64,000 bases of DNA from Salarchaeum japonicum (GTDB lineage: Archaea; Halobacteriota; Halobacteria; Halobacteriales; Halobacteriaceae): positions 62,001 to 126,000 of the forward strand of contig NZ_CP085324.1 in NCBI RefSeq assembly GCF_020614395.1, read 5' to 3'. Below, piece by piece: positions 34,681-41,701 of the stretch. Made by a program: the position numbers and the translations under genes. The notes below the pieces were generated by a model. The model saw only the letters and a list, made by a program, of their open reading frames with translations. It was not told the origin of the DNA and did no database searches. How positions within the stretch are numbered: the stretch's first letter is position 1; the number at the start of each line of letters is the position of its first letter.

Positions 34681-35061
34681 ATGCACGTCAGAGAGGCGGT
34701 CGAAGCGGACACCGACGCGATTTCGAGCCTGCTCGACGCGCCCGCGGGCGTCGCGAGCCGACTGCTCCGCGAACGCACCGTCTCCGTCGCTGTTCGAGAC
34801 GAAACCGTGGTCGGCGTCGTCGCGTACGAGGCGGACGGCGACGCGGTGCACGTGACGCGGCTCGCGGGCGAGCGCGACGCGATGGCGCGACTGCTGAACG
34901 AACCCATCGAGTTCGCAGAACACGAGGGGCTTCCGGTGGAACTCCTCGTCGAAGAATCGAAGGCGGGCGTCGAGTTCGCAGTGGAAACGAAGGGGTTCGA
35001 GAACGTGGGACAGGGACCGCGGTTCGCGGGCGAAGAGACGGCCCGATACCGGTACGACTAG
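34681..35061 (+). CDS. GNAT-like N-acetyltransferase domain protein
   Basis: 126 residues. MHVREAVEADTDAISSLLD is the typical start of a GNAT fold and VAVRDETVVGVVAYE its central strands. The acetyl-CoA loop is weak: the usual Q/R-x-x-G-x-G/A is not evident, so activity is uncertain. Its stop overlaps the convergent oapC by a CTAG. Confidence 0.7.
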   Translation: MHVREAVEADTDAISSLLDAPAGVASRLLRERTVSVAVRDETVVGVVAYEADGDAVHVTRLAGERDAMARLLNEPIEFAEHEGLPVELLVEESKAGVEFAVETKGFENVGQGPRFAGEETARYRYD

Positions 35062-37005: not shown

Positions 37006-37034
37006 GCCCCCCACCCCCTCGTTTCGAGTGGAAC
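37006..37034 (-). promoter_or_regulatory. ORB element left of the AT-rich stretch
   Basis: Read on the minus strand: gttccactcgaaacgaggggg followed by a further G run. It is inverted relative to the element at 37211, with the AT-rich stretch between the two, which is the canonical origin layout. Confidence 0.75.
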
Positions 37035-37210: not shown

Positions 37211-37240
37211 TCTCCACCCGAAACGAAGGGGTGGGGGGGT
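37211..37240 (+). promoter_or_regulatory. ORB element right of the AT-rich stretch
   Basis: tccacccgaaacgaaggggt followed by a G run is the best full-length ORB match in the region and is the mirror of the element at 37006-37034. Confidence 0.78.
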
Positions 37241-37267
37241 TCGCCCCGTCCCGGGTCTCGACCCGTC

Positions 37268-37282
37268 CGTTTCGAGTGGAAC
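37268..37282 (-). promoter_or_regulatory. ORB core without the G run
   Basis: cgtttcgagtggaac is identical to the core of the element at 37006-37034 but has no adjacent G/C run. A second such half site, ctccactagaaacc, is at 37077-37090. Confidence 0.45.
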
Positions 37283-37636: not shown

Positions 37637-37659
37637 CTCCACCTGAAATAGAGGGGTGA
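37637..37659 (+). promoter_or_regulatory. ORB-like element overlapping the orc1 start region
   Basis: tccacctgaaatagaggggtg differs from the best ORB in a few core bases. It covers the potential GTG start at 37656, so Orc1 binding here could repress orc1 itself. Confidence 0.6.
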
Positions 37660-37670
37660 ACGATTCAGAT

Positions 37671-39146
37671 ATGGATGACAACACACCGGCGGACGACCGG
37701 CGCACGGCACGCGACTTCGACGTGGAGATAGACGACGTCCTCGACGAGGACGGCGACGACGAGGACGGCCTCTTCGACGACCTCCTCCGCGGCGAACCCA
37801 TCTTCGAGAACAAGGAAGTCCTCCGCCCCTCCTACACGCCCCACGAACTCCCGCACCGGAACGAACAGATAAACAACATGGCGACAATCCTCGTCGCCGC
37901 GCTCCGCGGGGAAACCCCCTCGAACATCCTCATCTACGGGAAGACGGGCACGGGAAAGACCGCGTCCGCGAAGTTCGTCAGCCAGGAACTGGAGAAGACC
38001 TCCCGCAAGTACGAGGTTCCGTGCGAGGTCGAGTACATCAACTGCGAGGTCACGGACACCCAGTACCGCGTGCTCGCACAGCTCGCGAACACGTTCATCC
38101 AGCAGAACCGCGAGTTCGTGGACGACCGCGTGGACGAACTCGAATCCCTCGCGGAACGCGCCCGCGACGACCCGACCGTGCTCGCCGACACCGAGTTCGA
38201 CTCCGTCGAGGCGGTCGTCGAACGCGTCGACTCCCTGCTCGACGACCGCGAGGAGATGGAGGACGTCCCCATGACTGGGTGGCCGACCGACCGCGTCTAC
38301 GCCGAGTTCTTCGACGCCGTGGACTACGTCGAACGCGTCGCCGTCATCATGCTCGACGAGATCGACAAGCTCGTCGAGAAATCCGGGGACGACACCCTCT
38401 ACAACCTCTCCCGGATGAACTCCGAACTCGACAACTCCCGGGTCTCCATCATCGGCATCAGCAACGACCTGAAGTTCACGGACTTCCTCGACCCCCGCGT
38501 CAAGTCCAGTCTGGGCGAGGAGGAAATCGTCTTCCCGCCCTACGACGCGAACCAGCTCCGCGACATCCTCGAACACCGCTCCGAGACCGCGTTCAAGGCG
38601 GACGCGCTCTCCGAGGACGTCCTCCCGCTGTGCGCGGCGTTCGCCGCGCAGGAACACGGGGACGCGCGGCGCGCGCTCGACCTCCTCCGCACCGCGGGCG
38701 AACTCGCCGAGCGCGACCAGGCCGACATCGTCACCGAGGCGCACGTGCGGCGCGCGCAGGACAAGATAGAACTCGACCGCGTCGTCGAGGTCGTCCGCAC
38801 CCTCCCCACCCAGAGCAAGCTCGTCCTGTACGCCATCCTCGTCCTCGAAAAACACGGCGTGCACAACATCAACACGGGCGAGGTGTACAACATCTACAAG
38901 CGCCTCTGCGACGAGATCGACGCCGACGTGCTCACCCAGCGCCGGGTCACCGACCTCATCAGCGAACTCGACATGCTCGGAATCGTGAACGCCGTCGTCG
39001 TCTCGAAGGGCCGCTACGGCCGCACCAAGGAAATCAGCCTCTCGGTTCCCGTCGAGGAGACCGAGGCCGTCCTCGAAGCCGACAGTCGGCTCGGGGACGT
39101 GGAGAACGTCACGCCGTTCGTGCAGGCGCGCTTCGACAACGAGTGA
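37671..39146 (+). CDS. orc1: Orc1/Cdc6 replication initiator
   Basis: Origin-binding AAA+ initiator, 491 residues from ATG 37671 (496 from an in-frame GTG at 37656 inside an ORB). Walker A IYGKTGTGKTA (about 87-97), Walker B VIMLDEIDKL (about 225), sensor 1 IIGISNDLKF, sensor 2 region EHGDARRALDLL, and a C-terminal winged helix (about 385-475) for ORB contact. It lies directly beside its origin, as for the main haloarchaeal initiator. Its stop is 4 nt before the convergent signal peptidase end. Confidence 0.95.
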   Translation: MDDNTPADDRRTARDFDVEIDDVLDEDGDDEDGLFDDLLRGEPIFENKEVLRPSYTPHELPHRNEQINNMATILVAALRGETPSNILIYGKTGTGKTASAKFVSQELEKTSRKYEVPCEVEYINCEVTDTQYRVLAQLANTFIQQNREFVDDRVDELESLAERARDDPTVLADTEFDSVEAVVERVDSLLDDREEMEDVPMTGWPTDRVYAEFFDAVDYVERVAVIMLDEIDKLVEKSGDDTLYNLSRMNSELDNSRVSIIGISNDLKFTDFLDPRVKSSLGEEEIVFPPYDANQLRDILEHRSETAFKADALSEDVLPLCAAFAAQEHGDARRALDLLRTAGELAERDQADIVTEAHVRRAQDKIELDRVVEVVRTLPTQSKLVLYAILVLEKHGVHNINTGEVYNIYKRLCDEIDADVLTQRRVTDLISELDMLGIVNAVVVSKGRYGRTKEISLSVPVEETEAVLEADSRLGDVENVTPFVQARFDNE

Positions 39147-39836: not shown

Positions 39837-39961
39837 ACAGGACGGACGACGCGCCCGGGGGACAAAAGCCCCGCCGGTCCGCCCTCACGCGGCTCGACCC
39901 GTCGTTCCGCGGGAACCGCTCACCGCAGGGCTTTTGCTCGCGTCCCGCCTCCCGAGTGAGT

Positions 39962-41701
39962 GTGCCGAACTCGACGCCGGTCGTGGTCGTGCGGGAACTC
40001 ACGAGCCGCGGCTACAACGCGGACCGGGACGCCGTGACCCTGCTCGCGGACGAACCCGACCCCGCGCGCGCCGTCGAGCACGTCGTCGAGCACGCCCCGG
40101 CGGACGTGCTCACGATCTCCGCCGCGCAGGTTCGCGAGGCGCTCGACGCCCGCGACGACACGGAGGAAACGGCCACCGAGGGCGACCGGAGCGACCGCCC
40201 GGGGCCGTCCGCGACCCCCTCCAGTGAGTCCGCCGAGTCCGACGAATCCGCGAGTCCCACCGCCGAGTCCGCGAATTCCGCTACGGAGTCCGCGTCTGCC
40301 ACAACAAACTCGGAGTCCTCCATTTCGACTGGACGAGAAACAACTCGTACTGGCGAGCAGGATAGTGGTTCTGCACCTGAAACGAAGGGGGTTGGTGGGG
40401 GTGATGGTGCCGCTCCCGGCGGGTCGGACGGCGTCGCGGACGCGATGGACGCAGACTCAATCGGGGCGTTCGAGCGCGCGGTGGACGAGACGCTCCACGA
40501 GGTCAGCATCGCGAACGACATCACGGGCCAGTCCACGGGGACGGGCGAGTACGGCGACTTCGTCTCCGTGTTCCGCGACCGGTACGACCGTCTCTCCTCG
40601 AAACTTCGGGGGCGCGTGAACCACCGGCCGACGAACGCGCTCGAATCCATGGGCGGCGGGAGCGAGGCCGCCATCGTCGGGATGGTGAACGACATCCGCT
40701 CGACCGCGAGCGGCCACTGGCTCATCGAACTGGAGGACACGAACGGCGTCTTCCCCGCGCTCGTGATGAAAGACCGCGACATCGCCGCGCACGTGGACGA
40801 ACTCCTCATGGACGAGGTCATCGCCGTCGAGGGGTCGCTCGCGCAAGACGGCGGCATCCTCTTCGTGGACTCCATGCACTTCCCGGACGTCCCCCGCACG
40901 TACAAGCCGAACACGGCCGACCGGCACGTGCAGGCCGCGCTCATCAGCGACGTGCACGTCGGCAGCCAGGAGTTCGCGGACTACGCCTGGGAGTCGTTCG
41001 CGCGCTGGCTCCACACCGAGGAAGCCGAGCACGTCGAGTACCTCCTCATCGCGGGCGACATGGTGGAGGGCGTCGGCGTCTACCCCGAGCAGGACGAGGA
41101 ACTCGACATCGTGGACATCTACGAGCAGTACGAGGCGTTCGCGGAGAAACTCAAGCAAGTCCCCGGGGACATGGAGATCGTGATGATTCCGGGGAACCAT
41201 GACGCGGTTCGGCTCGCGGAACCCCAGCCCGCGTTCGACGAGGAGCTCCGCGACATCATGAGCGCGCACGACGCCCGCATCACCGGGAACCCGAGCACGG
41301 TGACCGTCGAGGGCGTGAACGTCCTGATGTACCACGGCGTCAGTATCGACGAGGTCATCGCGGAACACCCGAGCGAGTCCGTCTCCTACGACGCCCCGCA
41401 CCGGGCGATGGAGCAACTCCTGAAGAAACGCCACGTCGCCCCCCAGTACGGCGGCCGGCTCCGCGTCGCGCCCGAGGAGAAGGACTACCTCGTCATCGAC
41501 GACGTGCCCGACGTGTTCCACACCGGTCACGTCCACAAGCTCGGCGTCGGGACGTACAACAACGTCCGCCTCGTGAACTCGGGGTGCTGGCAGGAGCAGA
41601 CCGCGTTCCAGAAGTCCGTCAACATCGACCCGGACGTGGCGACCGCGCCCATCCTCGACCTCGACACGCTCGACGTCACCGTCCGGAAGTTCGAGAACTA
41701 A
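39962..41701 (+). CDS. polB: DNA polymerase II (PolD) small subunit, DP1
   Basis: 579 residues; 3'-5' exonuclease subunit of the replicative family D polymerase. N-terminal helical domain (about 1-60), a long Ser/Thr/Glu-rich linker (about 60-155), OB fold (about 230-305) and a calcineurin-like phosphodiesterase domain with LISDVHVGS, IAGDMVEG, IPGNHDAVRL, YHGVSI and HTGHVHKLG. Starts with GTG; 39962 is preferred over a GTG at 39956. The linker has different base composition from the rest and contains an ORB-like pair (40321-40402). The large subunit is outside the window. Confidence 0.93.
   Translation: MPNSTPVVVVRELTSRGYNADRDAVTLLADEPDPARAVEHVVEHAPADVLTISAAQVREALDARDDTEETATEGDRSDRPGPSATPSSESAESDESASPTAESANSATESASATTNSESSISTGRETTRTGEQDSGSAPETKGVGGGDGAAPGGSDGVADAMDADSIGAFERAVDETLHEVSIANDITGQSTGTGEYGDFVSVFRDRYDRLSSKLRGRVNHRPTNALESMGGGSEAAIVGMVNDIRSTASGHWLIELEDTNGVFPALVMKDRDIAAHVDELLMDEVIAVEGSLAQDGGILFVDSMHFPDVPRTYKPNTADRHVQAALISDVHVGSQEFADYAWESFARWLHTEEAEHVEYLLIAGDMVEGVGVYPEQDEELDIVDIYEQYEAFAEKLKQVPGDMEIVMIPGNHDAVRLAEPQPAFDEELRDIMSAHDARITGNPSTVTVEGVNVLMYHGVSIDEVIAEHPSESVSYDAPHRAMEQLLKKRHVAPQYGGRLRVAPEEKDYLVIDDVPDVFHTGHVHKLGVGTYNNVRLVNSGCWQEQTAFQKSVNIDPDVATAPILDLDTLDVTVRKFEN
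40321..40402. promoter_or_regulatory. ORB-like inverted pair inside the DP1 coding region
   Basis: atttcgactgga (40322-40333, reverse core) and gcacctgaaacgaagggggt followed by tggtggggg (forward, about 40373-40402) flank about 40 bp of A/T-richer DNA. The forward element matches the ORBs beside orc1 closely, including the G run, although here it is translated as PETKGVGGG. Codon use in this segment departs from the GC-rich third positions of the gene. Confidence 0.6.

Follow-up and report, generated by a model that had tools for sequence, protein, structure and literature searches.

The DNA analyzed here was a 64-kb stretch of the Salarchaeum japonicum genome, referred to below as the window. 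The window contained, in order, the gene for a GTP-binding protein, oriC1, orc1/cdc6, a reverse-strand gene, and DP1, which is the conserved context of oriC1 in haloarchaea. Published maps have the same gene order and draw a signal peptidase at the place of the reverse-strand gene (PMC4010727). The relevant features were as follows.

34976-35002, plus strand: ORB-like element in an ORF beyond oriC1, on the opposite side from DP1 (20.0 bits; equal score in the congener G001)
37007-37033, minus strand: oriC1 ORB (40.9 bits)
37212-37238, plus strand: oriC1 ORB (40.8 bits)
37255-37281, minus strand: weaker oriC1 ORB (26.9 bits)
37637-37663, plus strand: oriC1 ORB immediately upstream of the orc1 ATG (27.8 bits)
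37671-39146, plus strand: orc1/cdc6, the initiator gene of oriC1 (Pfam Cdc6_C and Cdc6_lid; best PDB match 2qby chain A, Cdc6-1)
39956-41701, plus strand: DP1, the small subunit of DNA polymerase D (Pfam DNA_pol_E_B and Metallophos)
40308-40334, minus strand: reverse ORB in the DP1 linker, degenerate in S. japonicum (11.0 bits; GTCCAGTCGAAATGGAGGACTCCGAGT)
40335-40370, no strand: interior between the inverted ORBs of DP1 (36 bp, 50% GC in S. japonicum)
40371-40397, plus strand: forward ORB in the DP1 linker, with a short G-run (25.8 bits; CTGCACCTGAAACGAAGGGGGTTGGTG)

The Orc1 protein encoded in the window belonged to the Cdc6-1 group, and its nearest chains were 2qby_A (Sulfolobus Cdc6-1) and 2v1u_A (Aeropyrum ORC1), the initiators whose structures were solved on origin DNA. 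In DP1, the two ORBs were located in a linker comprising residues ~90 to 185. The polymerase D small subunits in the PDB aligned to DP1 from residue 202 on, so this linker was not covered.

The original prediction placed ORB-like elements inside the DP1 linker, and this was confirmed with a 27-bp ORB matrix. The matrix was built from 291 training sites upstream of orc1 at 87 haloarchaeal loci, with DP1 left out of the training, and its consensus was TTCCACTCGAAACGAAGGGGTGGGGGG. The forward DP1 site matched the oriC1 ORB consensus, scoring 25.8 bits in S. japonicum and up to 35.6 bits in other genomes; the reverse site scored 11.0 bits in S. japonicum. When the whole 64-kb window was simulated 30 times with a third-order Markov model, the top score was 10.4 bits and none reached 16 bits. 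The predicted interval (40321-40402) included the forward ORB but clipped the reverse ORB, which truly starts at 40308. An exact-word count of the 2.34-Mb genome gave exactly three copies of GAAACGAAGGGG, at window positions 34984, 37220, and 40379, and all of them fell inside 5.4 kb around oriC1. The extended G-string stretch of halophiles was represented in the window by GGGGGTTGGTGGGGG; most DP1 sites instead had GGGGTC without a long G-run. The third exact copy of GAAACGAAGGGG, located in the element at 34976-35002 on the plus strand (L101 3513), was in frame in an ORF without a Pfam match (34681-35061), and the element encoded VETKG, a peptide identical to that of the DP1 site.

The ORB matrix was used to scan about 100 distinct DP1 loci of haloarchaea, and the first 200 codons were treated as the N-terminal segment. 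The best forward ORB scored at least 16 bits in 86 of the 100 segments, as did the best reverse ORB in 50 of the 100. When synonymous codons were permuted within the segment, which kept the peptide and the codon usage, forward and reverse ORBs were found in only 61 and 15 of 4,000 permuted segments, respectively. The remainder of each gene, which is the catalytic part, had no ORB on either strand (0/100). The codons at the DP1 sites were also those that spell the ORB, including rare ones. In the forward element, these were Ser TCT (40 of 41; 6% expected), Pro CCA (76 of 76; 10% expected), and Glu GAA (86 of 86; 31% expected); in the reverse element, they were Val GTT (39 of 39; 7% expected), Thr ACT (39 of 39; 9% expected), and Gly GGA (46 of 46; 10% expected). 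Because these codons were counted at sites picked by the matrix, the permutation and not the codon count was the fair test. A comparison of S. japonicum with G001, its congener and closest relative, showed that the forward ORB core was 95% identical, versus about 58 to 61% for the linker on both sides. Since the genomes share ancestry, the ORB counts were not independent events, and the case rests on how the ORBs contrast with the linker around them, which otherwise changes fast within those genes. The check suggested with the original prediction was whether related DP1 genes conserve the DNA motif more strongly than the peptide. It was passed very clearly, and selection acts on the DNA of the DP1 element, not on the peptide alone.

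These data bear on two simple explanations. The first is a chance resemblance, since the motif is short and is located in a Ser/Thr/Glu-rich, low-complexity linker. Chance was ruled out by the three-copy word, the permutation, the Markov simulations, the conservation tests, and the strict pair search described below, and we give it a negligible probability. In the second, selection acts on the peptide (...STG...SPVETxG...) or on an mRNA hairpin, and the resemblance to an ORB arises as a side effect. The encoded peptide was indeed similar between species, and the two arms are inverted repeats that could pair in mRNA. However, synonymous permutation kept the peptide and destroyed the motif, which ruled out peptide conservation as the cause. 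The hairpin was ruled out because the arms varied independently: at variable core positions, an arm matched its own partner only at the level of chance, as judged against arms of other genomes, and one arm alone was retained in many genomes. We therefore regard this second explanation as very improbable.

The two DP1 ORBs of the window were separated by 63 bp, and this geometry was fixed in other genomes. Among the 63 genomes in which both DP1 ORBs scored at least 10 bits, the spacing was exactly 63 bp in 58 and was 60, 78, or 84 bp in the remainder; a spacing of 75 bp was seen in genus g35. At the position 63 bp from the forward element, about half of the ~100 haloarchaea had a strong reverse ORB. 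The distance from the gene start to the pair took 33 different values (202 to 493 bp). Thus, start distances varied and the pair spacing was constant, indicating that indels are tolerated in the linker but not inside the pair. The 36-bp interior likewise kept its length even though its sequence can vary freely. A spacing of 63 bp corresponds to six helical turns, yet spacings of 60, 75, and 78 bp were also found, and no claim of helical phasing is made.

A layout mirroring oriC had been predicted, and this was borne out for polarity, since the G-strings point outward in DP1 as they do at oriC1 (minus strand at 37007 and plus strand at 37212). It did not extend to spacing. The best inverted oriC1 ORBs had 52 different spacings among 75 genomes, and these ranged from 185 to 613 bp. 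The predicted A/T-richer DNA between the elements was present in S. japonicum, where the interior was 50% GC and the DNA around it was about 70% GC. Across the 63 genomes, the 36-bp interior had a mean of 63% GC, versus 71% and 69% alongside, and this modest dip weakened the claim of an A/T-richer core. The dip is small, and the interior has no AT-rich unwinding element.

These properties are pertinent to a role in initiation itself, in which the inverted pair loads MCM or acts as a dormant or auxiliary origin. The shared polarity would fit such a role, and dormant origins exist in haloarchaea (PMC4595724). As for the attributes of an origin, the inverted pair was present, the AT-rich element was absent, and the position was neither intergenic nor adjacent to orc/cdc6. 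The lack of the AT-rich element and of the orc1 adjacency makes it less likely that the pair is an origin, whether ordinary or dormant. In addition, the spacing was unlike that of oriC1, and a single ORB was sufficient in many genomes, whereas oriC1 of Haloarcula was impaired when one ORB was deleted (PMC3936714). The earlier suggestion of a second initiation zone was weakened by the spacing, by an interior that was not AT-rich in most genomes, and by the persistence of the pair far from orc1 (see below). Origin function is improbable in our estimation.

The strict pair pattern was found in 88 of 243 whole genomes of the order, and the reversed control was found in none. It occurred at one place per genome, except in G200, which has two DP1 matches. 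In all 62 of the genomes for which DP1 coordinates were listed, the pair was at most 450 bp upstream of the conserved DP1 domain, within the linker. The ORB core alone (TCCANNNGAAACRRNGGGG) was present in two to eight copies per genome. We compiled the distances from orc1 to ORB cores by hand for 17 genomes with usable coordinates; of 99 core matches, 48 were at oriC1, 24 were in the DP1 linker, and 27 were elsewhere. Of these 27, 25 were within 215 kb of orc1, and about 14% were expected there by position. This finding indicated that a wide zone near the origin has retained ORBs, with the DP1 pair as its most constant member. Some of the origin-proximal cores sat just upstream of genes, such as the malate dehydrogenase gene in L195.

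The form of the element varied among lineages. Many genomes had one DP1 arm only, and 7 of the 87 genomes with a nearby orc1 had no DP1 ORB of at least 16 bits. In the family of S. japonicum, the reverse arm had decayed in nearly all members and left a single strong ORB. The full pair was best displayed in other families, and Haloarcula sebkhae (L016) was among the genomes with a strong pair. Lost DP1 ORBs were not offset by additional ORBs in the segment between orc1 and DP1 (Spearman -0.01, p = 0.90). Other intragenic ORBs around oriC1 turned over, but the DP1 ORB did not. With this matrix, no linker ORB was found in DP1 of methanogens and other Halobacteriota classes beyond the class Halobacteria. 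The DP1 element is found throughout the class Halobacteria and has scarcely any counterpart outside the origin, and its motif is that of the oriC1 ORB.

ORB cores that belonged to neither oriC1 nor DP1 clustered at distances of up to about 200 kb from orc1. Together with the fixed geometry, this clustering would also suit a role in chromosome architecture, in which Orc1 at ORBs of the oriC1 zone bridges or organizes origin-proximal DNA. The distal ORB sites were not conserved in position, however, and we consider this role quite improbable.

Several further ORBs were observed in the vicinity of these genes. In ten Natrialbaceae-type loci (L033, L036, L038-L040, L045, L049, L051, L055, and L057), a forward ORB was located inside orc1 itself, in or near an insertion that splits the Orc1 alignment (around residues 160 to 171) and about 2.1 to 3.9 kb upstream of DP1. 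In Halorussus and Halarchaeum loci (L014, L020, L043, L046, L047, and L142), a strong ORB was found directly behind the DP1 stop codon, about 1,640 to 1,810 bp from the DP1 start. In family f19, which belongs to another class of the phylum, an ORB-like CTCCAGTGGAAATARTGGGGTC was present in the gene after DP1 (L172, L173, L177, and L179; weaker in L175 and L176). This sequence encoded DSPVEI(M/V)GS about 300 to 430 bp behind the DP1 match, and orc1 was also near in four loci.

In several lineages, DP1 has been relocated relative to orc1; the cases given here are those among the matches listed, and the lineages named are thus at least those concerned. Both ORBs were kept in Halorarius, in which DP1 was 131 kb from orc1 (and orc1 with its own ORBs was verified at the other place), in Natrarchaeobius (33 kb), in g58 (25 kb), and in Natronomonas (13 kb). 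The forward ORB was kept in Halorubrum alkaliphilum (32 kb), and one ORB, the reverse, was kept in g35 (25 to 36 kb). In genus g31, DP1 was about 11 to 20 kb from orc1, on the opposite strand where this was checked, and eight of the nine genomes examined combined a strong forward ORB with a reverse ORB 63 bp away; some of the reverse ORBs were below 16 bits, and that of G066 had only 5 bits. In Halolamina, DP1 was inverted about 5 kb from orc1 and the sites were mostly degraded; the DP1 ORBs of some Halarchaeum were likewise degraded, with the DP1 gene retained. Because the pair stays with relocated DP1 genes, it was ruled out as part of the oriC1 core. A further candidate, a DP1 gene 155 kb from oriC1 in G060, was rejected since orc1 adjoins DP1 in that genome. 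In the same genome, two inverted ORBs separated by 337 bp were located in seemingly non-coding DNA (G060:C1:1885604-1885959; L187 2105-2460), about 158 kb from orc1; the surrounding 7 kb contained no homologue of orc1 (E<=1e-5). This pair is possibly an orphan origin or a sink.

The element accompanies DP1 on relocation over 11 to 131 kb, and this favors autoregulation, in which Orc1 bound within DP1 acts as a roadblock that blocks or tunes DP1 transcription and ties the supply of polymerase D to free initiator. The persistence of the DP1 ORB amid other intragenic ORBs that turn over is also consistent with autoregulation. On the other hand, the element is about 200 to 500 bp inside the coding sequence and not at the promoter, it lies at widely differing distances from the start, and its degradation in Halolamina and some Halarchaeum was not accompanied by loss of DP1. 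Autoregulation is possible but on balance unlikely.

The clustering of the other ORBs around orc1 favors titration, and retention of ORBs in the origin-proximal zone is as titration predicts. Based on the motif and on known Cdc6-1/ORB structures, Orc1 is predicted, with near certainty, to bind the DP1 ORBs. We propose, with just short of an even chance, that the DP1 linker is an accessory binding locus for Orc1/Cdc6-1 that withdraws the initiator from oriC1. In its full form, the locus would have two inverted ORBs 63 bp apart, and in S. japonicum it would have one strong and one decayed ORB. Orc1 held at DP1 would be unavailable to oriC1. With about 3 kb between DP1 and oriC1 in the usual arrangement, the locus would be duplicated within seconds of firing, and the doubled locus would then compete with the two new origins for Orc1 and damp re-initiation, in the manner of a compact oriC2D, the ORB-rich region of Haloarcula hispanica. 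The invariant inverted arrangement at 63 bp suggests that two Orc1 molecules form a defined complex there and do not sit on two independent decoys. The disordered linker may be used because it tolerates imposed codons. Titration by ORBs downstream of an initiator gene has a genetic precedent in haloarchaea (PMC3936714).

Several observations count against sequestration by titration. Titration alone requires neither an invariant 63-bp spacing nor one and the same gene throughout the class. The pair was kept with DP1 131 kb from orc1, which makes the link to origin firing looser. Moreover, lost DP1 ORBs were not offset by nearby ORBs, the reverse arm was weak in S. japonicum, and two sites are a small sink compared to the 11 in oriC2D. 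Titration and autoregulation are not mutually exclusive, and autoregulation is a close rival. Both had been suggested with the original prediction, and both are supported as options. A broader formulation, to which we give somewhat less than an even chance, is that the element is a geometry-fixed, class-wide Orc1 control site in the DP1 coding sequence that links the amount of initiator to expression of polymerase D and/or to re-firing of the origin, in a datA/DARS-like role.

How archaea hold initiation to the right frequency is largely an open question. In the papers cited here, the haloarchaeal regions that control initiation in cis are limited to the origin and to clusters of ORBs between genes, and published surveys define origins by ORBs in the intergenic regions flanking orc/cdc6 genes (PMC3528665, PMC4595724). 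Surveys restricted to intergenic DNA would not list an intragenic pair, and the selected ORB pair in DP1, which is present in most haloarchaea, therefore escapes them; none of the papers found outside subscription journals mentioned ORBs in DP1. The pair points to an overlooked replication control element and suggests that coding regions around archaeal origins are worth scanning for initiator sites. Because synonymous recoding can remove the DP1 ORBs and leave the protein unchanged, the role of non-origin ORBs is directly testable.

Among known systems, the DP1 ORBs resemble the ORBs of haloarchaeal oriC1 in the consensus TTCCACTCGAAACGAAGGGGT and in outward polarity (PMC3528665, PMC4010727), but the DP1 copies mostly have TCCAG instead of TCCAC, lack a long G-string and an AT-rich DUE, and are located in coding sequence; the surveys in both papers covered intergenic DNA alone. 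E. coli datA and origin-proximal DnaA-box clusters, cited in PMC3936714 and PMC4010727, are initiator sites that are near but outside the origin, like the DP1 ORBs, and that lower initiation. Unlike datA, the DP1 element would serve a different initiator, is intragenic, and has no known cofactor, and its role is putative. The remaining comparison is with oriC2D of Haloarcula hispanica, an ORB-rich region downstream of cdc6E that negatively regulates its origin and for which initiator titration was proposed (PMC3936714). Like oriC2D, the DP1 ORBs are outside the origin core, beyond the initiator gene, and near the origin, and this position on the far side of the initiator fits in most genomes. 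However, oriC2D is intergenic, has 11 ORBs in 722 bp, and serves oriC2/Cdc6E (PMC3936714), whereas the DP1 element is intragenic, has one or two ORBs of the oriC1 type at a fixed 63 bp, and is class-wide.
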